The position numbers and the translations under genes were made by a program. This document shows, one piece after another, positions 16,380 to 35,570 of a DNA stretch of 64,000 nucleotides. The number at the start of each line of letters is the position of its first letter. The first letter of the stretch is position 1. Source of the stretch: Bacteroidales bacterium (GTDB lineage: Bacteria > Bacteroidota > Bacteroidia > Bacteroidales > UBA6680); NCBI GenBank assembly GCA_025210735.1, contig JAOARD010000022.1, positions 1 to 64,000 of the forward strand. Direction: 5' to 3'. Below the pieces are notes generated by a model. It saw only the letters and a program-made list of their open reading frames with translations. It did no database searches and was not told the origin of the DNA.

Positions 16380-16416
16380 ATTATAAATTCACGTTTCTAT
16401 TTTCGTCATTATTGCT

Positions 16417-16606
16417 AACGTCATATGTATGTTTCGTGCGCCTTTTGAAGCATTATCATTAAAATTTCTCAAGGAGTCAAATCTGCGATTTGATTACGCT
16501 TCATTTTCAATTATAAATGTCAAATCACAGATTTGACAGAGCTCAATAAATGCTCAAACCTTCAAAATTTCACAGACCAATCATGAAATATACATTTTGT
16601 TAATGG
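16417..16606 (-). other. attC-like site 10 (258-residue unknown cassette)
   Basis: aacgtcatatgtatgtttcg (16417-16436) is the imperfect complement of catgaaatatacattttgtt (16582-16601). The interior stem is TCAAATCTGCGATTTGA (16477-16493) and TCAAATCACAGATTTGA (16520-16536). The core GTTAATGG (16599-16606) pairs at 7 of 8 bases with the cassette start CCGTTAAC (16416 is outside; start at 17416-17423). It joins the TIR cassette directly, with no junction repeat. Confidence 0.75.
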
Positions 16607-16612
16607 CAGCTT

Positions 16613-17389
16613 TTATCTTTTCATAATTCCATTTATAAAAATGTTTTGATATTCTTCGATAGTTTCAAAACCTGGAGGGACATAATCCCAACCTTGGTCT
16701 TCATCTGTATAATCAAAATCTGAGATTCTATCGGGTAAAATTGGTTGCGGTGTAACTTTATTTAAATAACCTTTAAACAAGTGGTTTATTCCACATTCAC
16801 CAACTTTCCCTCTTAGTTCATGCCATCTATCATCTTCATCCATTCCATCTTCAATGTATGATGTCATTACCCAGCCCCATATTCTAATTTCTGCATCGTC
16901 TATATCTAAGCCCAATGTTGTAAAATTTTCTTTTGTAAAATATTGTTGTGGGTCAATTTGCTTTCCCAGTTCAATATAGCAGTCGTAAACGATTTCGAGT
17001 AATTTCACAAACTGTACTCTGCAGTTTGTAACTACATCCATAAATTCAGTGTAGTCACTATCTGGGAATCGATATTTTGCATTTCCATGAAAAAACATTG
17101 CTCCTCCAATAGGAACAGGACCACCATGAACATTATCGTTTCTAAGTTCTACAAAGAATTTGGCAAGTGGATCCTTTTTTAATATTTCTTGTTTGGTTTC
17201 ATACCATTCATTAAATCCAGATAAATGTTTAAATCTTTGAAGAGCAAACGTTATTGATCTAGATGCTGATAAAAAAGCTGTTAAATAGCAAGAAAACTCA
17301 AACCATTGCTGTCCACTTTCAATCATTTTCTTTAAGAAAAACTCTGATTCTTTAACTTTCTGCTCGACTATTTCAAATGAATATACCAT
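16613..17389 (-). CDS. Cassette protein of unknown function (258 residues)
   Basis: Family not recognised. The N-terminal part is helical (VEQKVKESEFFLKKMIES, CYLTAFLSASRSITFALQRF) and carries RNDNVHGG at about 85-92, a pattern often seen in HEPN-like and related helical nuclease or accessory domains. The C-terminal half is acidic and aromatic. The HEPN link is only a suggestion from RNxxxH-like spacing (RNDNVH). ATG 17389 follows the cassette core by about 30 bases. It neighbours the TIR cassette. Confidence 0.5.
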   Translation of the reverse strand: MVYSFEIVEQKVKESEFFLKKMIESGQQWFEFSCYLTAFLSASRSITFALQRFKHLSGFNEWYETKQEILKKDPLAKFFVELRNDNVHGGPVPIGGAMFFHGNAKYRFPDSDYTEFMDVVTNCRVQFVKLLEIVYDCYIELGKQIDPQQYFTKENFTTLGLDIDDAEIRIWGWVMTSYIEDGMDEDDRWHELRGKVGECGINHLFKGYLNKVTPQPILPDRISDFDYTDEDQGWDYVPPGFETIEEYQNIFINGIMKR

Positions 17390-17423
17390 TCGTTCATATT
17401 GAGTTGTTTAAACTACCGTTAAC

Positions 17424-17793
17424 ACCACGATAAACCAACCAGTTCAGTCTATTAAACCAATAGATATAGTTGGTTTATTGTTCTAACAAATGTAATAAAA
17501 TTACTTATTACCCTTTGTTGTATTACTTTTTATTATGTTCTGTTTTTAGGATAAACCAACTTATTGTAAAAATACTCTATAAGTACAATGCTATTTAAAC
17601 CTAATTTATACAAATACAGGGTTTTGCAGTCTGGTTTTACTCATATCTGATCTCTCTGTTTTGAATCCGTGAATACTTCGTATCTCTTCAGTGGTAGGGT
17701 TGCCCAGAGGCACCTTGCCACTTGCTAACAGTCCGGTTTACCTCCGCCTGTTCATGACTTACACCCTATAATTAATACACATACCGGGCATAC
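17424..17793 (-). repeat. Junction repeat copy 6
   Basis: A full-type copy with a small deletion (gtgtctatatccaactat missing after gtaaaaata). The group II-like end reads GTATGCCCGGTATG on the minus strand. The TACATTTG box is conserved (plus caaatgta). Confidence 0.85.
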
Positions 17794-17965
17794 CGACTCA
17801 GCTATGGAGAGTAGGCGTACTACGAAGAACATTCTCTCCTATCTTCCACTGAGCCAAATATGCGTTTTGACACAAATTTAAAATATTAAACAGCTCCGTC
17901 AAATCGCAGATTTTGCGGAGCTGATTAAATGCTCTAAAGTTTCATAAACCACTGAACCACTTATG
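17794..17965 (-). other. attC-like site 11 (decarboxylase/Ada cassette), degenerate
   Basis: The left arm is cgactcagctatggagagta (17794-17813). The right arm accacttatgtttttattca (17956-17975) resembles site 4 but lacks the GTT core, so the expected match to the cassette start GTTATAGGGC is missing. The inner stem gagccaaatatgcgttttga / tcaaatcgcagattttgcgg is kept. Confidence 0.5.
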
Positions 17966-17968
17966 TTT

Positions 17969-18814
17969 TTATTCATTTTCCAATATTGAAGCTTCCCAAC
18001 CAATTATTGCTTTCTTTCTTGTCGGATTCCAATGATAGCCTCCAAATTTTCCTGATTTTTGAATTACTCTATGGCATGGAATCAGGTATGCTATCGGATT
18101 GTTTCCTATTGCAGTTCCCACTGCTCTCGATGCTTTTGGATGCTGAATCGCTTCTGCTATTTCTCCATAAGTAGAGAGATTTCCATAAGGAATGGATAAC
18201 AATGCTTCCCAAACTTTCAATTGAAATTTTGTTCCTTTCAAATGTAATTTTATTTCATTTAGATTAGTCCAGTCGTTACGGAAAATAAACAAAGCGTCTT
18301 GTTGAAATTTATCTACTTTTTGATTGAATATTGCATTCGGGAAAATAGCTTGTAACTCCTCGAATGCTAATACATTATTCTCGCTAAATGCCATATGGCA
18401 GATTCCTTTATTGGTGGCTGCTACTATGATTTCGCCAAAAGGAGTTTCTGCAAAACTATAATTGATTATCAGGCTTGAACCACCGTTTTTATATTCTCCA
18501 GGAGTCATGCCCTCTATTGTTACAAACATGTCGTGAAGCCTTCCTGTTCCAGATAAACCCATTTCAAAAGCAGTGTCAAATAAATTGCTTTCTTTTTTCC
18601 TTAGCAAACTCTTTGCATAATTTGAGCTGATAAATTTCAAGTATTTTTTTGGACTAATTCCTACCCATTCCTTGAATAGACGCTGAAAATGAAAAGGACT
18701 TAAGTTAACATGCTCAGCTATTGCGTCTAAAGATGGCTGTCCTTTATGGTTATCATCTATAAAAGCAATAGCCTCTGCAATTTTATTATATTGGTATGTT
18801 TTATTGTCCAACAT
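17969..18814 (-). CDS. AraC-type regulator fused to O6-alkylguanine-DNA alkyltransferase (Ada-like)
   Basis: A 281-residue protein. The AraC HTH (about 10-100: SPFHFQRLFKEWVGISPKKYLKF) is followed by a methyltransferase domain (about 115-281) with the suicide cysteine in PCHRV (Cys247) and GxxxSRAVGTAIGNNP upstream. The zinc-binding AdaA domain is absent, as in many short Ada-like proteins. It should repair alkylated guanine by self-alkylation and may regulate genes. It overlaps the decarboxylase gene upstream by 14 bases. Confidence 0.9.
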   Translation of the reverse strand: MLDNKTYQYNKIAEAIAFIDDNHKGQPSLDAIAEHVNLSPFHFQRLFKEWVGISPKKYLKFISSNYAKSLLRKKESNLFDTAFEMGLSGTGRLHDMFVTIEGMTPGEYKNGGSSLIINYSFAETPFGEIIVAATNKGICHMAFSENNVLAFEELQAIFPNAIFNQKVDKFQQDALFIFRNDWTNLNEIKLHLKGTKFQLKVWEALLSIPYGNLSTYGEIAEAIQHPKASRAVGTAIGNNPIAYLIPCHRVIQKSGKFGGYHWNPTRKKAIIGWEASILENE

Positions 18815-20222
18815 AGGCTGTTACTTCATCATTTAGTTCATCAACCAATTCATCAATTTCCTTTTCAGTGGTATTATAATTTGTAATACAAGCTCTAAAA
18901 CAAGGAATGCCTTTTATAGGATAAACAGATAACCATGATTTACCTTTTGCTAAAACCTTATCCAATATTTCTTTCGGGAAATTTGAATCTGTTTCAAATT
19001 CAGATTTTACAAAGCATACAACTGGCAAATCTGTATTATTTTTGATTTTCCAACCATTTTCTATCAGCTGATTTTTTAAATATTCCCCCATCTTTGCCTG
19101 ATGATTTATGGTTTGTTCATATCCCTGCCAACCATAAAATAGTAGTGAAAGATATACTTTTAAACCAATGAATCTTCTCGACCATTGAATAGAATGTGTA
19201 AAGGGTTCAGTAATCGTGAGTTTATCAGCTTCCTTTGGCATGTATTCCGTTGTAATTCTGAACGTTTTTCCGAGAATATCATTTCTCGATGTCAAAAATA
19301 TACTTGTTCCCATTGGTACCGACATCCATTTATGAGCATCAAAAGTAATAGAATCAGACTTTTCGATACCTATTAATTGGTGCTTCAAATCCTGACTTAA
19401 AATTGCTCCTCCTCCATAAGCTGCATCGACATGAAACCAAATGTTGTTCTTTTTGCAAATGGAACTTAGCTGATTCAATTCGTCAATTGTACCTGTCCCA
19501 GTAGTTCCAGCAGTTCCAATAATCATTAATGGCGCATAAATTGATGAGTCAAGTTCATTTAGTTTTTGCTGTAAAATCTCCGTGTCCAGTTTTAATTCAT
19601 CTGTAATTGGAATTGATTTTACAAGATTATATCCAATCCCAACAACTTTTGCGGCTTTTTGAATAGAGTGATGAGCCTCTGCTGAACAAAATACAACAGG
19701 TTTTTTGTCTAAACCAAATACTCCATCCTTAGCAAAATTTTGGTATTTATGGTTCAAAGCACAGAGCATTGCTGTAAGATTGGCTTCAGCTCCTCCTGTT
19801 GTGAAAACACCATCTGCATTTTTATCATATCCAAATTTATTTGCAAATTCCCTAATTATTAACTCCTCTACTTCAACTGCAAAAGGGGCATGGCTCCAAG
19901 CAGCTAATTGAGGGTTATAGGTAGCTGTGATTAGGTCAGCGATAATTCCTGCATAATTAGAACGTGGATTGAACAATCCAAAATATTTAGGATGTGGTGT
20001 ATGAACACTAAAGGTTTCAAGTCCATTTGTTACGTGTTGGATAGCTTTATCTGGTTTGATTCCATTAACTAACTCTGTGGAAAGAAGCGATTCTCTAATT
20101 TTATTAATATTTAAATCAGGATTGGTCTTAAAATCTTGTGTTGAGCTATAATAGTTCTCCAGCTTTTCAAATACTATTTCGAGTATTTCTTTTCTCTGTT
20201 TATTGTCAAAATCAAATTGCAT
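18801..20222 (-). CDS. PLP-dependent group II amino acid decarboxylase
   Basis: About 473 residues of the DDC/glutamate decarboxylase-like family. Motifs: TTGGAEANLTAM, HHSIQKAA (the stacking His), GTAGTTGTGTIDEL, HVDAAYGGG and DAHKW with the PLP lysine at about 298. It removes the carboxyl group of an amino acid, perhaps aromatic; the substrate cannot be told from sequence. The frame is open to 20258, but the ATG at 20222 has AAAGGA eight bases upstream and starts the family's usual N-terminus. The first gene of its cassette, it is translationally coupled to the Ada-like gene. Confidence 0.85.
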   Translation of the reverse strand: MQFDFDNKQRKEILEIVFEKLENYYSSTQDFKTNPDLNINKIRESLLSTELVNGIKPDKAIQHVTNGLETFSVHTPHPKYFGLFNPRSNYAGIIADLITATYNPQLAAWSHAPFAVEVEELIIREFANKFGYDKNADGVFTTGGAEANLTAMLCALNHKYQNFAKDGVFGLDKKPVVFCSAEAHHSIQKAAKVVGIGYNLVKSIPITDELKLDTEILQQKLNELDSSIYAPLMIIGTAGTTGTGTIDELNQLSSICKKNNIWFHVDAAYGGGAILSQDLKHQLIGIEKSDSITFDAHKWMSVPMGTSIFLTSRNDILGKTFRITTEYMPKEADKLTITEPFTHSIQWSRRFIGLKVYLSLLFYGWQGYEQTINHQAKMGEYLKNQLIENGWKIKNNTDLPVVCFVKSEFETDSNFPKEILDKVLAKGKSWLSVYPIKGIPCFRACITNYNTTEKEIDELVDELNDEVTAYVGQ

Positions 20223-20311
20223 ATTAATTCCTTTTAAATGTTTTGACAAAATTCTCAATTCTCAAAACGTAATGAAACCCGATTCTTGCGGTTTTTAAAA
20301 TGCCCTATAAC

Positions 20312-20711
20312 ATCACGATAAATCAACCAATTCAGGTTATCAAACCAGTAGATATAGCTGGTTTATTGTTCTAACAAATGTAATAAAATTACTTGCACCC
20401 CTTTGTTGTATTACTTTTTATTATGTTCTGTTTTTAGGATAACCCAACTTATTGTAAAAATATAGTAAGTGTCTATATCCAACTATTATTCTATAAAGTA
20501 CAATGTTATTTCAACCTAGTTTATACAAGTACAGGGTTTTGCAGTCTGGCTTTACTCATATGTGATCTCTCTGTTTTGAATTCGTGAATACTTCGTATCT
20601 CTTCAGTGGTAGGATTGCCCCCGAGGCACATTGCCACTTGCTAACAGTTAGGTTTACCTCCGCCTGTTCAGGACTTACACCCTATAGTTAATACACATAC
20701 CGGGCATACAC
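20312..20711 (-). repeat. Junction repeat copy 7 (full length, about 400 bp)
   Basis: A full copy between the restriction cassette's attC and the start (GTTATAGGGC) of the decarboxylase cassette. It includes tail, TACATTTG, ccaactattattctataaag, gcagtctggctttactcata and the group II-like end (minus GTATGCCCGGTATG). Confidence 0.85.
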
Positions 20712-20785
20712 GGTGAGTATATGCCCAGTATGCCTATGTTACGCCTGCGGCAAAGAGTTATGTTTTATAAGCCATTGTTGTATGC
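20712..20785 (-). other. attC-like site 12 (type I restriction cassette)
   Basis: The right arm agttatgttttataagccat (20757-20775) and the centre acgcctgcgg closely resemble site 3. The left arm (gagtatatgcccagtatgcc) is diverged and pairs poorly. The core GTTGTATGC (20777-20785) is the exact complement of GCATACAAC (28396-28404), which makes 20777-28404 one cassette of 7.6 kb. Confidence 0.6.
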
Positions 20786-20958: not shown

Positions 20959-23900
20959 TTATATCACATCTCCAACACCTTTAAATTTATCGACAAATGC
21001 TTGAATCTTTTGAAAAACGCTTTGCTTCCTAATTAGATATTGTGGATTTAAAGGGCTCATTTTAGGTAAAATCGAATTTAATTCGGTACCGTTTTCACTA
21101 GCGTATTCACGTTTCAATGAGCTTTTGATATAACGTTTTGCTGCTTCCTCGTTTAAACTTTCATCTTCTATCAAATGAGTCACTTCCTCCTTCTGCTTCT
21201 CTTGAGCAAAACTAAAAAATGCCTCAATGATACTTGTTTTATCCTCGATGGTATCAAGGTCAGTGCTATTAATAAAATCGACCACCAAGCTTTCTTTTGC
21301 TCTATTGCCAATGCTTGCACGGATAATACGGCGAATTTCATCTATTAAATCAGCTTTGTTTTTGGTTTTCTTATTGTGTTCAAAAACTAGTTCTAGAATG
21401 TAATCCAAGTTTATTTCTTGCGATTTGAGCAAGTCAACCTCAAAAACAACATCGTCCCAATCAATATCCGATTCTTCTGCTTCACTACCACTTTTCTCAC
21501 GTCGTAGCCAATCACGGATATCATTATAGGTTGAGCGATAATTTTGAACTGTTCGTTCGGCAGGCATTTCAATTTCCTGCATTTCTGCAATTTCTTCGTC
21601 AGTTACAAAATGAGCTTCTTTGAAAGCTTCTACAGCATCGGTATCATTTATATCAATAGATTGCAATGCCTTTAAGTGATTAAACTCATCATAGTTTTGT
21701 AAGATATTTTCTACACGTAGATATTCTCCAAAAAGTTTTACAAACTCCTTTTTACTCTTTTCAGTTTCAATCTCATCAGGGTTAGGGAATTTTTTATTTA
21801 ACTCTTTTACAACTTCAATATATCCACGACGAGCCAAACCTGTGGCTATATCAGTAAAGCCTTCCAAATACTCTTTATAGCTTTTTTCCAGTACAACATT
21901 TTTTGTTTTACTGTCTCCAAAAAGAGTTATGGCATCTATAGTTGACTGTTCTAGATTTCTGAATGTAACAATGTTTCCAAAAGTTTTGGTAGCATCGTAT
22001 ATTCGGTTAGTACGAGAAAACGCTTGCATCAGACCATGATAACGTAGATTCTTGTCTACAAAAAGAGTATTAAGTGTAGGAGCATCAAAACCTGTAAGGA
22101 ACATACCTACCACTATAAGCAAATCAATTTCTTTGTTTTTTACTCTTTTTGCTAAGTCACGATAGTAATTCTGGAACTCTTTACTTTCTACACCATAATT
22201 ACTGCCAAACATAGCATTATAGTCACCAATGGCAGATGTAAGAAATTCTTTTGCACTGCTGTCCATAGCAGTAGGTTCAAAGGTTTCATCCGGTATTTCG
22301 CCTACTGCGTTTTGTTCTTCATTAGCAGCAAAAGAGAATATAGTTGCTACTTTGAGAGGCTTATCGCTTTCTTTTTGTATCTTATTGATGGCTTCATAAT
22401 AGCATTTGGCAGCATCTACACTGCTAACAGCAAACATAGCATTAAAGCCATTTTGTCCGCCATGTGATCTGTGTGTTTTTAGCCTAAAATTATTTAGAAT
22501 ATATTGCGAGATTTCATTGATACGCGTAGGATGTAAAAATGCTTTTTTGTTTTCGGCAGCGGTTAGCTTTTTCTCGTCCTTTTCATTTTCTATATTTTTA
22601 AATTGAGGACGAACATCATTGTAATCAACTTTGAACTTTAAAACCTTTTCGTCACGAATAGCATCGGTAATTACATACGAATGTAGTTCACGACCAAAAA
22701 CACTTGATGTAGTTTCTGCACCCAAAGCATTTTCAGGAAATATTGGAGTTCCCGTAAAACCAAACTGATAATATTTTTTAAACTTCTTTTTTAGATTCCT
22801 TTGAGCCTCCCCAAATTGCGAGCGGTGTGCTTCATCAAAAATAAACACCACTTGTTTCTGAAAGATAGGTAGATTGCTTTCACCTTTCATTAGGTTGTTC
22901 AATTTTTGAATAGTTGTAACAATAATTTTGTTGTCCTCTTTTTCGATATTGCGTTTTAAACCTGCGGTACTATCTGAGCCATTCACGCTATCAGGTGAAA
23001 AGCGTTGATATTCCTTCATAGTTTGAAAATCAAGGTCTTTACGGTCAACAACAAAAAATACTTTATCAATAAAATCGAGCTGAGTAGCCAAACGAGCAGC
23101 TTTAAAACTGGTTAATGTTTTTCCAGAACCTGTTGTATGCCAGATAAAACCACCGCTTTCTGGTTTACTCCATTTTTTTGCTTGAAAAGCACTGTTGATT
23201 TTCCATAAAATACGCTCGCTAGCTGCTATTTGGTAAGGACGCATTATTAGCAGCGTATTGTTAACATCAAATACCGAATAGTTAAGCAATACATTTAAAA
23301 TGGTATTCTTTTGAAAAAATGTAGCGGTAAAATCCTTAAGGTCTTTAATTAGCGTATTATCTGCTTTTGCCCAGTTCATCGTAAAATCGAAACTGTTTTT
23401 GTCTCGTTTTACGGTATTGGCAAAATAGCGACTGTCTGTTCCGTTTGAGATAACGAAAATCTGCAAATATTTATAGAGTGAATTACTACTATTAAAGCTC
23501 TCTCTGCTATAGCGGTGTAGTTGATTAAAAGCTTCACGAATGGCTACACCACGTTTTTTGAGTTCGATTTGTACCAAAGGCAAACCATTAACCAATACGG
23601 TAACATCGTAGCGATTGGCGTGTGTGCCAGTTTGTTCGAATTGTGAAATGACCTGCACTTTATTGCGAGCAATGGTCTTTTTATCTACAAGATAGATGTT
23701 TTGAATATGTCCATCGTCAAACACAAAGTCATAGATGTAATCATCATGTATCTTTCGGGTTTTATCTATTATGCTGTCGCTTGGCTTGTCTAGGTATTCT
23801 TCTAAAAAACGTGTCCATTCACTTTGGGTAAAAGTGGTATTGTTTAGGTTTTGTAACTGTACACGCACATTTGCAAGCATTGCCTCGGGAGTTGTAAGTT

Positions 23901-24066
23901 GTGGCAAGTGTTCATAGCCTTGATTACACAAGTCTTCTATAAACTCTTTTTCTAAGCCAGCTTCAGTTTGATAGCTTGCTGCTGGTTCATTTACCTCATT
24001 ATATTTCTTGAATTTATCAAGAACAATGAAGTTATTTGATTCAATTATGGGTTTATAAGTACTCAT
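20959..24066 (-). CDS. hsdR: Type I restriction enzyme HsdR subunit
   Basis: A 1035-residue motor and nuclease subunit. The N-terminal nuclease domain includes [17 protein letters not shown] (PD-ExK family). The SF2 translocase starts with TTGSGKT (Lys316), has FDEAHRSQ as motif II and a later SRTNRIYD-like motif VI region. The C-terminal part binds the methylase core. It starts inside the end of the PrrC-like gene (ATGA overlap of 4 bases). It is the last gene of a prr-like operon in one cassette. Confidence 0.95.
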
Positions 24067-25256
24067 ATGTTTATACTTGCGGTATCAATATTAAAATTAA
24101 AAGTTTGGATAATTTCCTTCAATAAACGTTTGAAAATACGTTTATCATTTTCTTCTATTATTCTCCATTCTTCTCCTGAGTGCTTTGAATGACTTGTGAT
24201 ATTTAATATTCGTTTTACATAAGGAGTTTCATCTTCAAGTGGTGTTTTTCCAATCAATTCTCCCCAATCATCATAGTTTAAAAACGTTGCCGTTTTTTCT
24301 AATACATTGCGAAGAAGATGAAAGTGATATTTCTCAATATTATTTGATATTGCTGTATCTACGAGGGTAGAAAAAACATGTAAATGATAAGAGAAAGGAG
24401 AGTCGTTATTATGATTAATTAATCTAAAGCTCCCATCTTCAAAACTATTTAAAAGGTATTTTTTAAATTTTGTTTTTTTGAACTCATTATACAAGACATT
24501 AAAAAACAATGGATTATGTGTTGTAATTATAAACTTCAATCCAGATTTACTTGATTTAATTAGCTCAGCAATATTCACTGCTAATTCAATTAAATGGCTA
24601 TCATCTAGTGAACTCACAGGGTCATCGATAAAGACATATTCAAGATTATTAAATTTATCTGTAGCACGGTCATCTAATTCAACTGTATTTAACGCTTCTA
24701 TTACTTGATCCAAAAGACTGTAAAACACACACCAAATAAAATTACTTTCTTCGCCTTTTGAGATTTTTGCATTAGGAATATTTTCATCATCACCACGGTC
24801 AATAGAAAAAGTAACTTCTGAGTATGCTGGAATTGTAACATCCTCGTCTCTATCATTTTTTGCAGTGTACTCTGCATTAAATTTTGGTGTTAAATTATCA
24901 CTTGTATAGTGCTGAAACTTTTTAATAATGGTTGGCTCCTGTCCCAAATCTTTCAGAACCAGATTTGTAAAATTATTTGGACGAATAATTAGCTTTCTAT
25001 TATTATCACCATCTAAATCATTATCCCAGTAGAAGAGGTCTTCTGTAAAAGCATTATAGTAAAGAGCTTTTAATTCTGTTTCTTCTTCTTTTGGAGCAAT
25101 CAACTCTTTAAATTCACGTGACAAACGTGTTTTGCCATTACCGTTAAAAGCATAAATTAATTGGACTTTTACATCAGAAATTTGAGCTTCTTTAGCTCTT
25201 GTGATATTTTGGGCATCTCTTAGTGATTCCGCAATTTGTTTTAATGATTGACTCAT
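24063..25256 (-). CDS. PrrC-like anticodon nuclease
   Basis: A 397-residue protein, the same size as E. coli PrrC as I recall it (396). The N-terminal ABC-type ATPase has GNGKT at 39-43, a signature-like SKGEES and Walker [12 protein letters not shown] (Asp pair 211-212). The C-terminal domain has RNVLE (Arg316, Glu320) and SHSKH (His356, His359), which fit the Arg/Glu/His triad described for PrrC (320/324/356). The order hsdM-hsdS-this gene-hsdR is that of the prr locus. By analogy it stays silent in the restriction complex and cleaves a tRNA anticodon loop when a phage inhibits the enzyme. The tRNA target cannot be read here. Confidence 0.8.
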
Positions 25257-25268
25257 ATGTTTATGCTT

Positions 25269-26510
25269 CTAATTTTCTTTCGGAAAGGTTAATAATTTGT
25301 CTCGATAATACTCATACTGCTTCTTTCGTAACTCAATCTCCTTAGGTAAACCCTCGCTAATTGATGCTGTCAATACGTCAAATTTATCTAAGATTGAGAC
25401 TATACGTTCTTGTTCATCTAAAGAAGGTATTGGTATGATTACTTTGCTTAATCCTTTGGCATTAATTGCTGAAATTTTCCCAGATGATACACTTTTACGT
25501 ACTTGATTACTAAAAAAGTCAGTACGAGTGAAATATGCAACATACTTAGGATTTAAATCTGACTTGTAAAAAAAACAGGCATCGTGAATAACAACGCCTT
25601 CATCTCCATACCACGCTGTAGCCATTCCAATATCTTCTATTGTCTCACCAGCTGCAACAAAAATAACATCCCCTTTTTTAGCTCTACGAAGTTTCTTTGT
25701 TTCAACTAATTTGGTTGTAACAAAAGATTTCGCTTTATCTGTCCAAATACCATAATGAGTGTACATCTGACCATAATGAATACAAGGAATACCTTCAGAA
25801 ATCATATCTGTTTTAACAAATCTTTTTCCACGAATAAATTCGCCAACTTCTCCCAAGGTTTTCCACTCCACTTCATTATCTCCAAAGCTTAAGAGGTTAT
25901 TACGATAATAACTATACTGCTTTTTACGAGCTGTAAGCTCTGCTGTAAGCTCTGCTGTAAGCTCTGTAAATGTATCGAGAATACGCACTATTTCTTGTTG
26001 TATTTTTAGTGGTGGGATGGGGATTTGGAGTTTCTCCCATTGTGATTTAGTTAAACCAAATCTTGTTAATCCTTTAGCTTGTTTATTTATTTGTTCCTGT
26101 AAGGTGTTAGACCTAAATAAATAATTCATAAACATTGATTGAGTAAGATTGTATTTTTTTAATCTCACTCTCATTATATGATAACTATAAACAACATTTG
26201 GCATATCTTCAATTGCCATCGCTGAAAAACCAATCTCATTTTTCACTTCAGAACTAGGAGTAATAAAAAGGTCACCTTTTAAAACATTACATTGCTCAAT
26301 CTTCCTACTGTTTGCAGTAACTTGCATTGTAGGAATATTTGAATTTAAATATGGGTTTCTATAGACATCCATGTAATTTAGTAGTGTAATTGTTTTTTCG
26401 GTTTCAATTATTTTTTTGTCAACGCCTGCTCCCGAGATATCAGCGATCTCGCTGAGTGCTTTCCATTCAATATCAACACCTTCAAGTAATTTATCTAAAT
26501 AGTTACTCAT
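25269..26510 (-). CDS. hsdS: Type I restriction specificity subunit HsdS
   Basis: A 413-residue protein with two target recognition domains (about 15-160 and 215-370), each followed by a conserved helix ([15 protein letters not shown] and [15 protein letters not shown], then RKKQYxYYRxxLL). The first helix ends in [13 protein letters not shown], encoded by three perfect 12-bp repeats. The repeat resembles the TAEL repeats that set recognition-site spacing in EcoR124-type enzymes. It overlaps hsdM by 4 bases. Confidence 0.95.
25930..25965 (-). repeat. Three 12-bp repeats in hsdS (TAEL repeat)
   Basis: gctgtaagctct occurs three times without a break (25930-25941, 25942-25953, 25954-25965). Each unit codes for four residues, so gain or loss keeps the frame and lengthens or shortens the spacer helix. 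Confidence 0.9.
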
Positions 26511-28057
26511 TCCTCAATCTCCTTTACAATGTTATCAATATCGGAACGCAGCGAAGTTATTTTACTCACTGTGGCAGCAATCTCCTTATTCAGCTCTGCT
26601 ATGTCAATAACCTCACGAGTATCTTTTGCCTCTACATAAGAACTTACTGAAAGATTATAGTCGTTTTCGGCAATGGTAGTATTATCTATAGAAATGGCAA
26701 CGTGTTCTACATCCTCTTTGGTGTCGAACATCTGCATAATCTCTTCGATATGTCTGGATTCTAGCACATTGTTATTTGTCTCTTTCTTAAAGAAATCTTC
26801 GCCACTGGCATCTATAAACTGAGTTTTGGTATCAGTTTTACTTTTAGAAAGCACTAAAATATTTACAGCAATAGAAGTTCCAAAGAAAAGGTTTGGAGCT
26901 AATGAAATCACGGTCTCTACGTGATTATTATCTACCAAGTATTTTCTAATCTTCTGCTCTGCACCACCACGGTAAAAAATACCAGGAAAACAGACAATAG
27001 CAGCACGTCCTTTGCTTGATAAATAGCTCAATGCATGAAGTACAAAAGCAAAATCTGCTTTCGATTTAGGAGCTAGTACACCTGCAGGTGCAAAACGGTC
27101 ATCGTTAATAAGCGTTGGGTCATCGCTACCTATCCATTTTACAGAATACGGGGGATTAGAAACAATGGCATCAAATGGTTTATCGTCTTTTAATTGTGGA
27201 TCTGTTAATGTATTGCCCAATGAAATATGAAACTTGTCGTAATTGATGTTATGCAAAAACATGTTCATTCGAGCCAAATTGTAAGTAGTGTGGTTAATCT
27301 CTTGTCCAAAGAAACCATCTTCAATAATGTGGTTGTCGAAATGTTTTTTAGCTTGCAAAAGCAGTGATCCAGAACCGGCAGCAGGGTCGTATATTTTGTT
27401 TACGCTGGTTTGCTTGTGCATGGCAAGTTGAGCAATAAGCTTAGATACACTTTGAGGGGTGAAAAACTCACCGCCCGATTTCCCTGCATTAGCAGCATAG
27501 TTTGAGATAAGAAACTCGTAGGCATCACCGAAGAAGTCTATCTTATTATCTTCGAATTTACCCTCAAGCTTTAATACTGCTACACCTTTTATAACAGCGG
27601 CTAGTCGACTATTTTTATTTTCAACTGTATTACCAAGACGATTACTGGTTGTATCAAAATCTGCAAACAATCCTTTAATGTCATCCTCTGATGGATAACC
27701 ATTAGCTGAGCTTTCAATTGCTGAAAAAATTGCAGCTAAGTCGGTGTTCAAGTTTTCATTATCATTTGCTTTTTTTGCAATATTTACAAAAAGTTGGCTT
27801 GGATAAATAAAGTAACCTTTGGTTTTTATGGCATCATCTTTTATTTCGGGAGTTATTATATCATCAGACAAGGAAGCGTAATTGATGCTATCATCTCCTG
27901 CTTCTATATAGTTAGAAAAGTTCTCACTTATAAAACGGTAAAACAGAGTTCCCAACACAAATTGTTTAAAATCCCATCCATCTACCGAGCCACGCACATC
28001 GTTGGCTATCCTCCATATTTGAGCCTGTAATTCAGCCCTTTGTATTGTACTTGTCAT
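26507..28057 (-). CDS. hsdM: Type I restriction methyltransferase HsdM
   Basis: A 516-residue N6-adenine methyltransferase. The N-terminal helical domain ([21 protein letters not shown]) is followed by SAM motif [11 protein letters not shown] and the catalytic NPPY at 301-304. The C-terminus is a coiled coil. The ATG overlaps the stop codon of the small HTH gene (TAATG) and the end overlaps hsdS, so the operon is tightly coupled. Confidence 0.95.
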
Positions 28058-28245
28058 TACTCTTCCTTTAATAAATCTTTTGGTTTAACTCCTAATATCT
28101 CTGCTATTTCAAAAAGCACCTCAAGTCTCGGTTGCTGTCTGTTCTGCACATAAGAGTTCACCATATTGTAACTCTTTCCCAACTTCTCAGCTAACCAAGT
28201 CTGTTTAATGCCTTTTTCTTCAAGCACTTCTTTAATTCGATTCAT
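28057..28245 (-). CDS. Small XRE-type regulator of the restriction operon
   Basis: About 62 residues, a single helix-turn-helix ([26 protein letters not shown]) ending KDLLKEE. I choose the Met at 28245 ([10 protein letters not shown]), the usual start of these proteins; 28254 is possible. It is the first gene of the hsd operon and overlaps hsdM by one base, so it is probably a controller that delays or limits restriction. Confidence 0.8.
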
Positions 28246-28319
28246 TCCAGTCAAATTATTTTGTAGCTAAGATATATGATTATCTCAAAAAACAAGATAT
28301 AATTACCAATTTATTCTGG

Positions 28320-28347
28320 GTGCGAGAAAAAAAACAAAATAAATTCC
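28320..28347. repeat. Inverted repeat, right copy, of the restriction cassette
   Basis: gtgcgagaaaaaaaacaaaa continues taaattcc; it is the inverted counterpart of 20872-20902. The space 28255-28400 upstream of the HTH gene should hold the operon promoter. Confidence 0.55.
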
Positions 28348-28404
28348 TCCAAGTTTGCACTTAATCTCTTATATGAACGGTGTATTTTTCCGCTTGCATA
28401 CAAC

Positions 28405-28446
28405 GTCATGATAAACCAACTTATTGTAAAAATATTGTAGGTGTGC
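28405..28446 (-). repeat. Junction repeat copy 8 (remnant)
   Basis: gtcatgataaaccaacttat and tgtaaaaatattgtaggtg are the tail parts also seen in copy 2. The rest is missing and the sequence changes at about 28447 into the minisatellite region. Confidence 0.75.
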
Positions 28447-28475
28447 ATATCCTATCTGTTGTATATAATGCATAC

Positions 28476-29290
28476 CAGTGATATGTAGAGCCAAACTAAT
28501 AACATTGTAATGCTACCGAATGAGATGTAGCACAAAACAGTGCATTGTAATCCAAAACCAGTGATATGCAGAGCCAAACTAACTACATTGTAATGCTCCC
28601 AAATAACAATGTAGCGTCAAAATAATATCATTGTAATCCAAAACCAGTGATATGTAGAGCCAAACTAACGATATTGTAATGCTCCAGAATGAGATGTAGC
28701 GTCAAAATAGTGGCATTGTAATCCAAAAACAGTGATATTTAGAGCTAAACTAACAACATTATAATGCTCAAGAATGATATGTAGCGTCAAAACAGTGCAT
28801 TGTAATCCAAAACCAGTGATATGTAGAGCCAAACTAACAACATTGTAATGCTCCCGAATGAGATGTAGCGTCAAAATAGTGGCATTGTAATGCAAAACAA
28901 GTGATATTTAGAGCTAAACTAACAACATTGTAATGCTCCAGAATGAAATGTAGCGTCAAAATAGTGGCATTGTAATACAAAACAAGTGATATTTAGAACT
29001 AATCTAACAACATTGTAATGCTCCCGAATGACAATGTAGCGTCAAAACAGTGGCATTGTAATGCAAAACCAGTGATATGTAGAGCCAAATTAACGACATT
29101 GTAATGCTCCCGAATGACAATGTAGCATCAAAACAGTGGCATTGTAATCCATAACCAGTGATATTTAGAGCCAAACTTACTACATTGTAATGCTCCCGAA
29201 TGAGATGTTGCGTCAAAACAGTGCATTGTAATCCAAAACCAGTGATATATAGAGCCAAACTAACTACATTGTAATGCTACCGAATAATAT
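28476..29290. repeat. Minisatellite, about ten 85-bp units
   Basis: The unit starts cagtgatatgtagagccaaa and continues with actaac, an acattgtaatgctcc box, gaatgagatgtagcgtc and aaaacagtggcattgtaatcc. Unit starts are at 28476, 28559, 28645, 28730, 28814, 28899, 28984, 29070, 29156 and 29240, so spacing is 83-86 bp. Units differ by point changes. acattgt/acaatgt allows a hairpin in several units. Frames crossing it shift from unit to unit and are not genes. Confidence 0.95.
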
Positions 29291-29510
29291 GTTCAAACCA
29301 TCTGTTGATATATAAAAACGTTCCGTAATAAAGAAAAATACAATAATGTAAAAAGCCCGATAAAACAGCTGCTCTGAGATTAATTCATTACCAGATAGCA
29401 ACAGTATAAATCTATAAATCAGAATAATATTTTGTATTTAATAAAAAAAGGTTTTAACTTATATTTAGTTAATACTCAGAAATTTTATTGTTGAACTAAA
29501 CATATATGTA

Positions 29511-30152
29511 ATGAGTCAAAAAATTTCCCTACAAATGGAAAAGTACGGAACAATTGTAAAAAGCCTTACAGTTCCTGAAATAGCAAGTGCATTAATTAAG
29601 TTCGGGTATACCCCTGAGGTTATCAGCAATATTACCCGTCATTATGAAGATACAGTAGTATCAGTTCTTAATCAGGAAAAGGAGAACAAAGAGAAATTCT
29701 TTGCCACACAAAATTTCATAAAACTGAGAGACGAAATTGATACAGATTTTTCAAATGATAAAAAGATCTGTTCATTGGCATTTGCCAGTGACGATAAACT
29801 ATCTCTGATTGTACCTCCTTTTATAAGAATTAGTCCTTACGATAAATGGTTTGATTCTTTGACTAAGATGTATCACAATATATTAAATATTGAAGGTGCT
29901 CTTGACAAACTAAAAAGATTCAATTATAGCGCTGAAGATATAAATGCAAGGTTAAACAGACTTAATACTCTGTCTGAGCTTAAAGCTGAGAAGTTGAAAG
30001 AGAAGAGTGAAGCAGAGAGTGCTACCATTAAACGTAACGATATGGTAGATGAGTTAACAGTAACATGTCGTGAGATATCAGAGATTGCGAAGATAGCATT
30101 TGATAAAAAATCGCAGTTACTTGAAATTATGGGGATTATTACAAAAAGTTAA
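29511..30152 (+). CDS. Conserved-looking protein of unknown function (213 residues)
   Basis: A soluble, mostly helical protein. The start MSQKISLQMEKYGTIVKSLTVPEIASALIKFGYTP is given in parts: an initial strand, then a helix (EIASALIKFG). Helical pairs follow (NIEGALDKLKRF, LSELKAEKLKEKSEAES). I do not recognise the family. It stands alone on the plus strand between the minisatellite and attC 13 with its own strong terminator, so it is not a normal cassette gene. It may be chromosomal DNA between two array segments. Confidence 0.6.
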   Translation: MSQKISLQMEKYGTIVKSLTVPEIASALIKFGYTPEVISNITRHYEDTVVSVLNQEKENKEKFFATQNFIKLRDEIDTDFSNDKKICSLAFASDDKLSLIVPPFIRISPYDKWFDSLTKMYHNILNIEGALDKLKRFNYSAEDINARLNRLNTLSELKAEKLKEKSEAESATIKRNDMVDELTVTCREISEIAKIAFDKKSQLLEIMGIITKS

Positions 30153-30194
30153 ATAAGTTAATGCCATAGGTAGGATTTAGTTATATCTTATCGT

Positions 30195-30236
30195 AAAACA
30201 GGCAGACACCGGGACGGTATTCTGCCTGTTTTTTTT
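30195..30236 (+). terminator. Strong intrinsic terminator
   Basis: aaaacaggcaga (30195-30206) pairs perfectly with tctgcctgtttt (30221-30232), followed by more T residues. It ends the gene at 29511-30152. Confidence 0.85.
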
Positions 30237-30288
30237 ATGCCTTACTGATATGTTAAAATATATCACAAAAAAAAGCTTGCATCTTATA

Positions 30289-30361
30289 GCGTTTGGACTA
30301 TGAAACGCAACTCTGTGTTGTGCATACGGCAGAGAGTTATGTTTTATGATCGTCTGTCAGG
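30289..30361 (-). other. attC-like site 13 (RloA/RloB)
   Basis: gtttggactatgaaacgcaa (30291-30310) then ctctg pairs imperfectly with cagagagttatgttttatga (30330-30349). The centre (tgtgttgtgcatacggcaga) closely resembles sites 3 and 12. The core reads GTCTGTCAGG (30352-30361), not GTT, and the rloB stop codon (30357-30359) lies in it. I found no matching cassette start near 32130-32250. Confidence 0.6.
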
Positions 30362-30923
30362 TTTTCGTACTTTTCTGTTTTACAATTTCTTCAAGTTCCT
30401 CAATAAACTCATAAACGTTTGTCGATGGATTTGTGTTTTGTTTTAATTCTTTGGCTCTATCAATGGCTATATTTCGACCATTATCAAGCTCGTTCTTTTG
30501 TTTATCAGTCAGCAAACTTTTTTTATAATCTTTCCAATGCGTTTTAAGAAGTCGGACACAGTCTTCAGAAGATACCCGCTTTCTTAAATCCTGCTTATGA
30601 AGTATAAACCATAGCTCAATGCAAGGATTAGTAAGTAATAGATTGCTGTCTTTTATTGATTTGAGTTTATCAATTATTTCAGAAACGTCTTCATCGTAAA
30701 AAAGAAAAACCTTATCATTTTTTGTAAAAATCTTGTCACTCAGATAACCCGATACAAATCGTTGTGATATTTTACTTCCTGATATTTTCGACTTAATCTC
30801 AATTGGAATACGATACCTACTCCGCAGATAGTTAATATACTCTTTCTCAGTTTCTCCTTCACAGAAGACATAGAATGTAGGATTTATTTGCCTAACCTTT
30901 GGTTGTCGTTTCGCTCTACCCAT
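30357..30923 (-). CDS. RloB-like protein
   Basis: A 188-residue protein of the RloB family: PTFYVFCEGETEKEYINYL at the start is a TOPRIM-like first motif (CEGxTE), FLFYDEDVSE the acidic motif and NPCIELWFILH the conserved NPxFExWF-like motif. It is the second gene of an RloA/RloB pair (8-base overlap), similar in layout to AbiL-type defence pairs. It probably has a nuclease-related role; this is inferred from the TOPRIM-like residues. Confidence 0.8.
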   Translation of the reverse strand: MGRAKRQPKVRQINPTFYVFCEGETEKEYINYLRSRYRIPIEIKSKISGSKISQRFVSGYLSDKIFTKNDKVFLFYDEDVSEIIDKLKSIKDSNLLLTNPCIELWFILHKQDLRKRVSSEDCVRLLKTHWKDYKKSLLTDKQKNELDNGRNIAIDRAKELKQNTNPSTNVYEFIEELEEIVKQKSTKT

Positions 30924-32127
30924 TCTTTATTTCGTTTATAAAGGATTGCGATAAATCTATGAATGGTATAGCATCAAATCTGCCTTGAAGGTAACCTTTC
31001 TCGGCATCCATGTTCTCTCTAAAATCCTTAAAATCAAACAACGAATACAACTCTGTATCGCCTGATTGCGATTTATTAACAAAGTAAATCTGGTCTTTTC
31101 TGGTTTTCTTTAAATCCAATAAGTTTGTATTATGAGTCGTGTAAATTAGCTGTGATTTATTACTCATATTAAACAATTGAATTATAAACTCGATTATACT
31201 TGTATGAAGACTTGTTTCAATCTCATCTACCAGTAAAATTTTGTCATTTTTAATGATGTCGAGTATATTAAGCATTGCAAAAAACAACTTCCTCGTTCCG
31301 TCAGATTCTTCCTTATCGAAGTCAAACGGAATGTCAGGTGCGGATTTATGATAACTTATTATCTTTATTGAATCACCACCCGATTTATCTAACGAACTAC
31401 TCTCCTTTTTATAATCCAGACCGACAATATCACTGTCTGCAATTTGCATCGCTCTTAATAGAAACTCTTTGTTATTAGCAAGTTGAGAAATTATTGTTTT
31501 GGTGTTAAATCCCATGTATCCAAGAACAAACTTGTTACTGAAGTAGTTAAAAATTTCTTTTCCAAGTTCCCTGTCCATTTGACTTGCTCTGGAAATATAT
31601 AGAGTCTTATTTGACGTGTTCTGTGCAACGTCCAATGGTCGCTTAATAACTTTTGTAAATGAATATTTATCACGTTTCTGAGAGCTTAACGATTCGTCTC
31701 TTTCAAATACTTTTGCCCTGCGATTGTTTGGGTAATAATAAAGCGTCTCTTTTGTAATCTCTGTTTTGGTCAATGAAAATGAGTACTCATATTCAATATC
31801 ATTTGATACAAATCTAATAAAGAATGTGCTTTCTTTTTGACTTTTATCAAACTTGAATGGCTCGAAGTCAAAAATTGTATTTTCATTGTAAAGATGAGAT
31901 TCAAAAATCATTTTACAACAAAATCTTATGGCTTTTACCACATTGCTTTTTCCTGATGCATTTGCACCATATATAGCAACTGTTTTCAATATCTTTTCAT
32001 CACTCCATTCAAAAACGTTTGTGTCTAGTTCCTTGGCTTGCTTGGTTTGAATATTTCCAGCCCTCAGGTCTAAAATTATCTCGTCTTTTATTGAATAAAA
32101 GTTATTTAATCGTATCTCTAAAACCAT
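30916..32127 (-). CDS. RloA-like AAA ATPase
   Basis: A 403-residue SMC/RecF-like ATPase. Walker A is GANASGKSN (about 51-59) after a first strand LEIRLNNFYSIKDE. Late motifs are DKILLVDEIETSLH (Walker B) and YTTHNTNLLD (His switch). The family is the AAA_15/21 type coupled with RloB. It likely senses infection and activates RloB. It is the first gene of the outermost cassette-like unit. Confidence 0.85.
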   Translation of the reverse strand: MVLEIRLNNFYSIKDEIILDLRAGNIQTKQAKELDTNVFEWSDEKILKTVAIYGANASGKSNVVKAIRFCCKMIFESHLYNENTIFDFEPFKFDKSQKESTFFIRFVSNDIEYEYSFSLTKTEITKETLYYYPNNRRAKVFERDESLSSQKRDKYSFTKVIKRPLDVAQNTSNKTLYISRASQMDRELGKEIFNYFSNKFVLGYMGFNTKTIISQLANNKEFLLRAMQIADSDIVGLDYKKESSSLDKSGGDSIKIISYHKSAPDIPFDFDKEESDGTRKLFFAMLNILDIIKNDKILLVDEIETSLHTSIIEFIIQLFNMSNKSQLIYTTHNTNLLDLKKTRKDQIYFVNKSQSGDTELYSLFDFKDFRENMDAEKGYLQGRFDAIPFIDLSQSFINEIKNG

Positions 32128-32336
32128 TTTATATTTAGTATTTGTAACAAAAATACAAAATTAGAGCTTAAAACACAATTTATTTAAACCAATTGAGTAA
32201 CTGAGCAGTTTGCTTGGGAGTTTCTTAGTATGAAACCTAATTTCACACCAAAGTAATGTTGCAAACACCTTTAGTTTATGTTAATTCTATTCTGGATGTA
32301 AGCCTTTTTACAACACTCTGAAACAGGGTGCTAATC

Positions 32337-32502
32337 TAAGAAGCTGTTTAAAACTTATCCTTCAGTTTTTTTATATGGAAATATTAAGCCTAATTTCGTT
32401 AAATTTCATTTAAACGGAGCCACCATTCGCATAAAATTTGCCTTATTATGCTCCAATTTGCATTGATAAAAATTCCAAAAACAAATTCAAACAGCTTCTG
32501 AA
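32337..32502. repeat. Palindromic element, 166 bp
   Basis: taagaagctgtttaaaactt (32337-32356) with atc matches, in inverted form, the end gataaaaattcc...ttcaaacagcttctgaa (32465-32502). Family members: a short one at 59542-59602 and one arm shared with 2838-2862. The gap between rloA and clpB (32128-32530) contains nothing else that I can name. Confidence 0.6.
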
Positions 32503-32530
32503 TCATATAATTGTTAACTAATCTATTATG

Positions 32531-35119
32531 TTAATTTTCGAACCTGAGATTCTCTTCTGCTACAGTTATTGTAACAGGTTTGTCCTTATCAATCTCATTT
32601 GCCAATATCTTTGTAGATAATTCATTAAGTATATATCTCTGTACAGCCCTCTTAATTGGTCTTGCTCCATATTGAGGATCGAAACTATTGTTACCTAACC
32701 ACTCTAATGCATCATCTGTTATCTTCAGCTCAACTCCATTACCAGCCAGACGTTTTGCTATAATGTTAAACTGCAACTCAACAATCTCTTTTATCTGACT
32801 ACTGTCAAGAGGTGTAAACATCACAATCTCATCAACACGGTTAAGAAACTCCGGACGCATGGTGCTCTTAAGTTTATCAAATACCATCTCTGATGTTTTA
32901 TCGTACAACGCTCTGAAGTTACTCTCATTGGCACTCTTAAGCTGCTCATTAATATACTCCGAACCTATATTAGAGGTCATTATAATTATGGTATTCTTAA
33001 AATCTACTGTTCGCCCTTTATTATCGGTAAGTATACCATCGTCAAGTACCTGAAGCAGTATATTAAAAACATCCGGATGCGCCTTCTCTATCTCATCAAG
33101 CAGTATCACAGAGTATGGTTTACGCCTTACGCTCTCTGTAAGCTGACCTCCTTCATCGTATCCAACATATCCCGGAGGTGCTCCTATAAGTCTGGATACT
33201 GAGTGTTTCTCCTGATATTCCGACATATCTATACGTACCATGTGCGATTCATCATCAAACAGAAAATCGGCTAATGATTTTGCAAGCTCTGTTTTTCCAA
33301 CACCCGTTGTTCCTAAGAATATAAACGATCCTATTGGTTTTCTTGCATCCTGTACCCCTGCCCTGCTACGTCTTACAGCATTTGCTACTGCCTCTATAGC
33401 CTCTTGCTGACCAACAACACGTTTGTGCAGTTCATTCTCCAGATTAAGCAGTTTTGCTCTCTCTGTCTGCATCATTTTTGATACCGGAATACCTGTCCAT
33501 CGTGCTACAACTTCAGCTATATCGTCTGAGTCTACCTCCTCTTTTATCATTGCACTTGTTGCCTGCATATTTGCAAGTTCAGCTTTTGCGCTCTCTACCG
33601 CCTGTTCAAGCTCCTTAAGTTTACCATATCGTATCTCTGCAACACGTTCGTAATCGCCATTACGTTCTGCCTGCTCTGCCTCTGTCTTAAGCTCCTCTAT
33701 CTGCTGTTTGCTCTGCTGTATTGTATCAACTACATCCTTCTCATTACGCCATTTAGCCATCAGCTCATCGCGTTGCGATGTAAGTTCTGCCAACTCTTTT
33801 GATAACTGACTCTGCTTTGCATTATCGCGCTCTCGTTTAATTGCCTCTTTCTCAATCTCAAGCTGAGTAATTTTTCGGTTCAACTCATCTATCTCTTCCG
33901 GTACCGAGTTTATCTCCATACGCAGTTTAGATGCAGCCTCATCTATCAGGTCAATAGCTTTATCGGGTAAAAATCGCTCTGTAATATATCGTTGCGATAG
34001 CTCTACAGCCGATATTATCGCCTCATCTTTTATGCGCACTTTATGGTGTGTCTCATACCGCTCTTTTAATCCTCTAAGTATAGATATTGCGCTCAATGTA
34101 TCAGGTTCATCAACTGTAACCTTCTGAAACCGGCGTTCAAGTGCTTTATCCTTCTCAAAATATTTCTGATACTCATTAAGTGTTGTTGCTCCAATTGCTC
34201 TGAGCTCACCGCGTGCAAGAGCGGGTTTCAGAATGTTTGCTGCATCCATAGCTCCTTCGCCTTTTCCTGCACCAACAAGGGTATGTATCTCGTCAATAAA
34301 CAACACAACCTCTCCGTCTGATTTTATAACCTCATTAACAACCGCTTTAAGTCGCTCTTCGAACTCTCCTTTATATTTTGCTCCGGCAATAAGTGCCCCC
34401 ATATCAAGTGAGAATATCTGTTTACTTTTAAGATTCTCTGGCACATCACCGTTTACTACTCTATGGGCAATTCCTTCTGCAATGGCTGTTTTACCAACAC
34501 CAGGCTCTCCTATAAGCACCGGATTATTCTTGGTGCGTCTAGATAATATCTGTAATACACGTCTTATCTCCTCATCGCGTCCAATTACAGGGTCCAGTTT
34601 ACCATCCGATGCCTGTTTGTTAAGGTTAATTGCAAAACGGTTAAGTGAATCGAATGTATCCTCTGCTGATGGGTTATCTATCTTAGCTCCTTTACGCAAA
34701 TCATTTATTGCCGCTAGCAGCTCTTTTTCGTTTATTCCGGCATCTTTAAGTATTCGCGATGCCGGAGACGACTCTTTTACAATACCAACAAGCATGTGCT
34801 CTACCGATACATATTTATCATCCATCTTCTCAGCCTGCTTTACAGCTTGCTGCATAGCCTTTGATGCATCGTGCGACAATACAGGCTCGCCACCTGATAC
34901 CTTTGGCAGATGCTCAATCTCTTTATCGGTAAGTGAGACAATGTGAGATGTATTTACTCCAATCTTTGAAAAAATAAACTCAACAATGCTCTCGCTTCTG
35001 GTAGTTAAAGCTTTTAATATATGTATTGGTTCTACAATTTGCTGTTGGTTGCCTCCTGCAATCTCAAAACTCTTTTGCAGTACCTCTTGTGCTTTAATTG
35101 TAAATTGATCTAATTTCAT
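32531..35119 (-). CDS. clpB: ClpB disaggregase
   Basis: An 862-residue ATP-dependent chaperone of normal ClpB length. The N domain (1-145) is followed by AAA1 with GEPGVGKT and DEIHTL, a long coiled-coil middle domain (about 400-530) and AAA2 with GTTGVGKT and DEIEKAH. It pulls apart protein aggregates with DnaK. Single gene; the region downstream to 32503 is the palindromic element. Confidence 0.97.
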
Positions 35120-35123
35120 ATTT

Positions 35124-35570
35124 TTATAATTGTTTTTTCATTTGCCAGATGGAACTCCGCATAATAATCATCTCCGTGTGTGAGAAAAACTCTATATCAT
35201 GCTTCGTTTCATTTGTTTATAATATTTTAGTTATCCACCTAAATGTCAACCCGAACGGAAGTTGCGAACAACACATTTCGACTTCGCTCAATGTGACAAA
35301 TACATGCAATATATTTTATAATTTAAATGTATCTTTATTGCTTAATCATAATAGTTCTTCCGTTTATAATTGTTTCTTCATTTGTAAGATGGAACTCCGC
35401 ATAATAATCATCTCCGCGTGTGAGAAAAGCCCTTACTCATGCTTCGTTTCATATGCTTATAATATTTTAGTTATCACCTAAATATCAATCCAAACAGGAG
35501 TTACGAACAACACATTTCGACTTCGCTCAATGTGACAAGTACATGCAATAAATTTAATAATTCCGGTACG
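35124..35570. repeat. Two copies of a 220-bp intergenic repeat
   Basis: Copy a (35124-35345) and copy b (35356-35570) share agatggaactccgcataata, catgcttcgtttcat, ataatattttagttatc, caacacatttcgacttcgc and tcaatgtgacaaatacatgc. The acatttcgacttcgctcaatgt core is a hairpin (cacatt/aatgtg). No coding sense. Confidence 0.85.

Follow-up and report, generated by a model that had tools for sequence, protein, structure and literature searches.

An intergenic minisatellite of ~21-bp monomers in a Bacteroidales genome, and a second locus of its family shared with a sister species

Bacterial VNTRs and minisatellites are non-coding arrays of head-to-tail units of 10-100 bp, typified by patchy homogenisation and by whole-unit differences in length. 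The closest described systems belong to Porphyromonas gingivalis. BrickBuilt is a 23-nt minisatellite within a MITE, with imperfect copies and up to 22.8 units at 19 loci, some of its sites being common to a sister species (PMC4596501). The same source describes MITE464/PgRS, a MITE with IS5-type ends that carries 41-nt tandem repeats, so that this one species has both 41-nt and 22-23-nt arrays (PMC4596501).

Here we describe an array in a Bacteroidales bacterium of lineage UBA6680 (assembly GCA_025210735.1). Throughout, the window denotes the whole 64,000-nt stretch that was analysed (contig JAOARD010000022.1, positions 1 to 64,000). Like bacterial VNTRs, the window array is non-coding, head-to-tail and patchily homogenised, with apparent whole-unit length differences at a sister locus, and nothing excludes it from that class. 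It resembles BrickBuilt in being an intergenic tandem array of 20-odd-bp units with imperfect copies, in a Bacteroidales genome and with a site shared with a sister species. It differs from the 23-nt unit in having a 21.25-bp monomer arranged in an 85-bp order, and from the 19 BrickBuilt loci in that two family loci were found in its own genome, the two systems being compared here by unit length, unit order, terminal repeats and number of loci. Taken alone, the window array is a routine minisatellite, and it serves as a warning against reading the end of a cassette array into such a block.

The array and its surroundings

The array has a period of 85 with 88% matches by TRF (Table 1), and an ungapped repeat search places ten in-register copies of a 74-nt reference within it. 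The original prediction of a ten-unit 85-bp minisatellite was accordingly right about the tandem array and its ten copies, but not about the basic unit. Autocorrelation of the array peaks at 169, 85, 86, 171, 21 and 43, and an iterated weight matrix parses it into 39 monomers, the first of them degenerate, with all 38 steps measuring 20-22 bp over a span of 806 bp. The basic unit is therefore a monomer of ~21.25 bp, four of which make up the 85-bp unit. The monomer consensus is about ACATTGTAATGC, then AAACCAGTG, and the weight matrix is sharpest at TGTA and at the C four bases downstream. A doubled core pattern occurs six times in the window, each time within the array, and never in 100 shuffles. 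Pairwise identity among nine 85-bp units is 82-94%, with the most alike units scattered along the array (rows 3-5 and 5-6, 0.94; rows 1-9, 0.93), as in patchy homogenisation. A doubled 169-bp unit, suggested by a TRF row, is not claimed, since unit identity at lag 2 (0.886) does not exceed that at lag 1 (0.889). Every unit had also been said to carry boxes able to pair with a nearby acaatgt; the boxes are partly present, but exact acattgtaatgctcc occurs only six times and acaatgt three times, so the pairing fails for most units. Nor is the organisation that of a CRISPR, as the whole unit repeats, with no unique spacers between repeats.

That the array does not code, as predicted, is borne out: no ORF of at least 100 aa spans it, and an 84-aa ORF within it (29004-29258, minus strand) has no Pfam match. 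The suggestion of a structural array fared unevenly. As RNA, the plus strand folds no better than chance (z +0.30; 12 of 20 dinucleotide shuffles as good) and the minus strand more weakly than its shuffles (z +3.87; 20 of 20 as good), and the window has no Rfam match at gathering scores; a structured RNA array was thus rejected. As DNA, its predicted curvature (from a wedge table) is higher than in all 200 whole shuffles and in 190 of 200 arrays built from shuffled units. Predicted curvature is ordinary in L045, L185, L214, L242 and L254, whereas against whole shuffles it is high in L215 and L244 and less so in L255; as most other arrays do not follow the window array, intrinsic curvature was dropped as a common property. 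Sigma-70-like promoters occur in the array at chance frequency (nine found, 9.2 expected), and the two-part Bacteroidetes-type promoter motif does not occur in it.

Table 1. Features of the window and tandem arrays of the genus (window coordinates unless a locus handle precedes them)
Feature	Position	Strand	Basis or remark
Type I restriction-modification operon (hsdR, PrrC-like, hsdS, hsdM), left of array	20959..28057	-	Domain and PADLOC matches
Small Cro/C1-type HTH gene, left, start side facing array	28060..28245	-	Pfam HTH_3 3.7e-12
43-bp junction-repeat fragment of cassette-like array	28410..28452	+	91% to 429-bp copy at 11725
Direct repeat, left copy (15/16 bp), array edge	28454..28468	+	5/1986 random window pairs and 1/1000 shuffles score as well
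Degenerate first monomer, score 3.7	28460..28479		Monomer parsing
Minisatellite array, ~39 monomers of ~21.25 bp, 9.6 four-monomer 85-bp copies	28474..29292		TRF, monomer parsing, autocorrelation
Direct repeat, right copy, one extra base, array edge	29300..29315	+	Near-identical to left copy
213-aa protein gene without Pfam domain, right of array, multicopy family	29511..30152	+	Relatives elsewhere in genome
RloB / RloA-type (AbiL) pair, beyond 213-aa gene	30357..32127	-	Domain and PADLOC matches
Own-genome array, 43-bp unit	C73/C4		TRF
Own-genome array, 41-bp unit	L185:12387-12813		TRF
Own-genome array, 41-bp unit	L214:12965-13236		TRF
Own-genome array, 42-bp unit	L215:6270-6615		TRF
Own-genome array, 82-bp unit	L242:2554-2744		TRF, 2.3 copies
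Own-genome array, 42-bp unit	L244:6898-7034		TRF
Own-genome array, 84-bp unit	L254:10405-10700		TRF
Own-genome array, 41-bp unit	L255:9519-9734		TRF
Own-genome arrays outside the band, 105-bp unit	L198, L231		TRF
Own-genome arrays outside the band, 66- and 166-bp units	L183		TRF
Own-genome arrays outside the band, 88-92-bp units	three loci		TRF, one dispersed repeat
Own-genome tRNA tandem, outside the band, 114-bp unit			TRF
Near-42-bp locus, sister species G002	L260:2928-3637
Near-42-bp locus, sister species G002	L265:2555-3153

To the left of the array, the PrrC-like gene (24063-25256) inside the restriction operon gives a PADLOC PrrC match of 453 bits. Beyond the operon lies a cassette-like region (2000-20730), whose genes stand singly or a few together, for the most part on the minus strand, with long junction repeats between the blocks; its genes include a beta-lactamase family member, HTH with Gp49, Fic twice, PhzF, DUF2310, DUF6183, TIR, and AraC-OGT with a PLP decarboxylase. 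The block had been said to begin where a junction repeat, copy 8, breaks off. The array does start just after a junction fragment, the last junction match in the window on the array side, but that fragment is an internal piece of the repeat, and positions 1-137 of the reference, the junction sequence preceding it, have no match there either.

To the right, the 213-aa protein has no Pfam, PADLOC or PDB match. Among 21 genomes searched, its family occurs 13 times in the own genome (counting this gene), 22 times in the sister species G002, three times in G001, once in G004 and twice in G017; a protein scan of viral contigs gave 37 stretches, none of them a relative. One relative (C38:243048) has the 105-bp array of L198 at a distance of ~450 bp, and four others that were examined have no array nearby. 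From 29250 to ~32330 no DNA match was found in the two genus mates, G002 and G001 (query 29250-35200; 40 candidates scored in each, out of 223 and 56 respectively), which we take as marking a variable island at 29.25-32.3 kb and not as proof of absence. Dispersed intergenic repeats at 32334-32503 and 35114-35200 have many copies in the own genome and in G002. The window holds further long direct repeats (62357-63996; 1-203 and 1598-1804), one of which is a 196-bp tandem pair.

A second locus and the distribution of the family

The array unit was also found at the ends of two other contigs of the own genome, C73 and C4 (all 11 candidates scored). These ends share a stretch in the same direction, and so are probably one array split by assembly, with the contigs abutting. 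Over the common stretch the C4 copy lacks 129 bp, or three 43-bp units, of the C73 copy; the second array therefore varies in length by whole units, either in cells or only in the assembly. This three-unit difference, which may be an assembly effect, is a possible sign of variable copy number; the window locus was covered in one strain. In the sister species, an array of 24 monomers adjoins a matching Fur-family gene, and in both species this gene has the second locus immediately upstream of it (Pfam FUR, 2.8e-10 and 9.8e-9). Genes for an M14-type peptidase and PhzF are found a few kilobases beyond the opposite end of the array in both, while the genes adjoining the array on that side differ, namely a hydrolase in G002 as against flavodoxin-like and Na/H-exchanger genes in the own genome (G000). 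Between the two species the right edge and its flank are 87% identical over 242 bp, and the left flank 72% over 470. Because the family also has an array at another site of the genome, with a counterpart in the same place in the sister species, it is not part of the cassette array.

Searches for the unit in the genome and its relatives recovered the second locus and its counterpart in the sister species. With the array as blastn query, three of 99 relatives match (the own genome, G002 and, by a 35-bp piece at 6.5e-4, G083; at most five candidates scored per genome). For a profile of the 85-bp unit in 21 genomes, G000 and G002 alone give matches below 1e-5, followed by lone and weak ones (for example G006, 4.2e-4; own contig C1, 5.9e-4), and a wider profile at E 1e-4 matches three of 393 genomes of the order (G000, G002 and G610; stricter filters, 11 candidates scored per genome). 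An exact pattern of two adjacent alike monomers matches none of 395 genomes of the phylum; this is a narrow test, because the own genome is missed as well. By these profiles the family looks rare in the order, and with three of 393 genomes matching and few candidates scored per genome it does not come out as a widely spread intergenic repeat; a period of ~42 bp, however, is common to unlike arrays.

Farther afield, the Bacteroidetes MAG Umea1_bin-1585 (L096) carries 13 nearly alike 21-bp copies between genes for an ABC-transporter ATPase and a TPR protein. Its monomer agrees with that at L045:7684 at 20 of 21 positions, and its relation to the family beats 500 of 500 tandem shuffles with the C73 unit and 491 of 500 with the window unit. 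The 21-bp array that the profile found in G610 (L195, 1.6e-6) is doubtful as a relative, because tandem shuffles of its majority 21-mer do as well in 16 of 500 cases with the window unit and 53 of 500 with the C73 unit. A pattern scan of genome contigs gave seven stretches, of which L096, L099 (the G002 locus) and L095, a short ~21-bp array in a possibly misbinned Lachnospiraceae MAG, look ~21-bp, while L097, L098, L100 and L101 do not. No plasmid matched the window array, and neither plasmid nor phage matched that of L096. In viral contigs the double-spaced pattern gave L102-L105, two of them resembling the Niameybacter pair and two being 10-bp repeats, and the eight stretches found with the adjacent pattern (L104 included) hold no array of the window kind.

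Origin and possible function

We lean, with some reservation, towards an intergenic minisatellite that grew in place by slippage or recombination and is probably without a dedicated role here. A ~21-bp monomer would have been multiplied in place first, its copies diverging into four types, after which the four-monomer 85-bp block would have been multiplied by slipped replication or unequal exchange; we infer this mode of growth and the near-neutrality of the array. Neutral slippage does not explain why eight unlike families have units of 41-43 or 82-85 bp in common, nor why nearly the same monomer forms the 13-copy array of Umea1_bin-1585. The main rival, possible though unlikely in our estimation, is a helically phased protein platform, in which the core TTGTANNNC would recur on one face every two turns (~21 bp) and a dimer- or filament-forming protein would cover the array and so silence, insulate or anchor the region. 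The unbroken run of 20-22-bp steps, the retention of the array position in the sister species and the 41-43 bp of the unlike arrays would all suit such a platform. So would the core, where conservation within the monomer is strongest across family loci, although it was defined from the same data as the comparison. Two LytTR response regulators are encoded in the window; such regulators bind direct repeats mostly 12, and in some cases 11 or 13, bp apart (PMC6193735). Within the array, variation is half as frequent at core sites as in linkers (8 of 215 against 41 of 546 cells in nine window units), which speaks against neutrality, but at a Fisher p of 0.07 this constraint is only suggestive; one of 20 shifted masks beats the core mask, and the mask displaced by 18 is no worse. 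Curvature, being high in the window array and ordinary in the five arrays named above, likewise tells against the platform, and together the core and curvature results neither prove nor exclude it. Since the unlike arrays have only their period in common, no single sequence-specific protein serves them all. Direct repeats on one helical face would be compatible with an operator- or iteron-like array, without proving one; of the predicted protein-binding array, the two-turn spacing fits and binding itself stays a candidate function.

The favoured minisatellite must also be set against three readings that give the array a particular origin. The position of the conserved second locus, which immediately precedes a Fur-family gene in the two species, could mean that the arrays began there as repeated Fur-family operators, one copy reaching the defence island afterwards; this seems improbable, as a Fur-family match is lacking both among eight scanned proteins of the window locus and in the two genes flanking the L096 array. 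We also know of no practice of so many operators in a row. The direct repeat at both edges of the window array hints at insertion rather than growth in place, and might be the target duplication of a mobile block that arrived as a unit, perhaps in keeping with the DNA at 29.25-32.3 kb that finds no match in the two genus mates. Such an arrival has a small chance at best: the left copy overlaps the degenerate first monomer, no empty site was found, the 213-aa neighbour has protein-level relatives in both genus mates, and inverted matches between the flanks stay at chance level, 231 of 2000 random pairs scoring as well. The four TIR patterns for the IS5-type ends of BrickBuilt/PgRS that were taken from PMC4596501 are all absent from 28001-29600. 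Lastly, the block had been proposed as a relic that marks the attI-like recombination end of the cassette array, and it does occupy the outer end of the region of junction repeats, upstream of cassette genes that are mostly on the minus strand. No integron integrase was found among the scanned window proteins, and the best score in the genome (97.7% complete) is 75 bits against a TIGR02249 cut-off of 265, matches below the cut-off being given by all 14 control genomes as well. At E 0.01, stretches of 18-19 kb round the second locus (C73, C4) and its G002 counterpart have no junction repeat. Among the 40 candidates scored out of 77, junction-repeat matches occur on C16, C20, C24, C40, C60 and C61, besides two weak matches on C75 and C36. 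The junction-repeat stretches examined on C20, C40 and C60 (L047-L050) lack a satellite of the array family, their only array of at least 100 bp and 2.3 copies being a 105-bp repeat inside a 409-codon open frame. On these three grounds the array is not shown to be part of the cassette system, and we regard an attI relic as scarcely credible.

Unlike arrays with units near 42 bp

The one point worth pursuing is a bias in period. TRF was run over 2,157,169 bases of the own genome (the window and 107 further stretches, ~38%, with ~2 kb double-counted), and arrays were counted that had a period of 15-200, at least 100 bp and at least 2.3 copies and lay outside long ORFs, with the dispersed repeat taken as one locus and the tRNA tandem excluded. 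Nine of the 14 non-coding loci so counted have units of 41-43 or 82-86 bp, or eight of 13 with the window and C73 as one family. L214 is counted by its 41-bp row, its best-scoring row being 2.1 copies of 123, and L254 and L244 may lie in short ORFs (117-163 and 130 aa). Outside the counting rules fall repeats in long ORFs, longer periods (such as 226, 238, 255, 282 and 485), arrays under 100 bp (22, 23, 24, 27 and 34 bp) and lower-copy rows (such as 90, 91, 92, 102 and 186). If periods were drawn uniformly from 20-169 bp, nine of 14 would have a p of 5e-9, which is a guide only, because the band was chosen after the data were seen and the null is crude. The ~42-bp bias is, as such, post hoc.

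Of 55 unit pairs, two beat 300 of 300 shuffles, namely window-C73 and the orthologues L185-L265; the next were passed by 4, 7 and 10 of 300 shuffles, about as expected from 55 tests. The near-42-bp loci of the own genome thus form eight families with no alignment beyond chance. L185 had seemed by eye a relative of the window family and was rejected, 219 of 300 shuffles aligning as well with the window unit; for its G002 orthologue L265 four of 300 pass, the third lowest of the 55 pairs. We know of no bacterial VNTRs in which a unit of ~42 bp is common to unlike families. Nor did we find a report of such a bias in the portions of the open-access literature consulted on such repeats, on Bacteroidetes/Porphyromonas and on helical turns. 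An excess in divergent intergenic regions was too weak to retain (five of nine under either of two gene-calling rules, with L214 included under one and L244 under the other; p 0.06 or 0.04).

It is conceivable, though we hold it doubtful, that the genus carries sequence-unlike intergenic satellites whose units are locked to four turns of the helix (41-43 bp) or to double that length. This would imply either a generator that measures DNA by its turns or selection in favour of a phased platform for a sequence-blind nucleoid protein, and the 41-nt and 22-23-nt arrays of P. gingivalis would be of the same class. The 41-nt unit of MITE464/PgRS, as described in PMC4596501, equals in length the units of three arrays of the own genome (L185, L214 and L255) and two of G002 (L260 and L265). 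If unlike arrays of one genus do stay near 42 bp, the birth of bacterial minisatellites would be non-random in length, and sequence data could serve to test whether replication, repair or nucleoid proteins impose helical phasing.

In 0.4 Mb of the sister species (TRF, periods up to 300, at least 80 bp), a 41-bp array upstream of clpX lies in two pieces round a run of N, and L260 is a 41/164-bp array. Other arrays there are of 106 bp (L272, possibly in a 102-codon frame), 84 bp (in a 153-codon frame) and 27 bp (95 bp long), besides a tRNA tandem. The array upstream of clpX is unrelated to the window family and is kept between the two species with flanks of 87 and 94% identity and repeat pieces of 66-77%; the repeats therefore change faster than their flanks.
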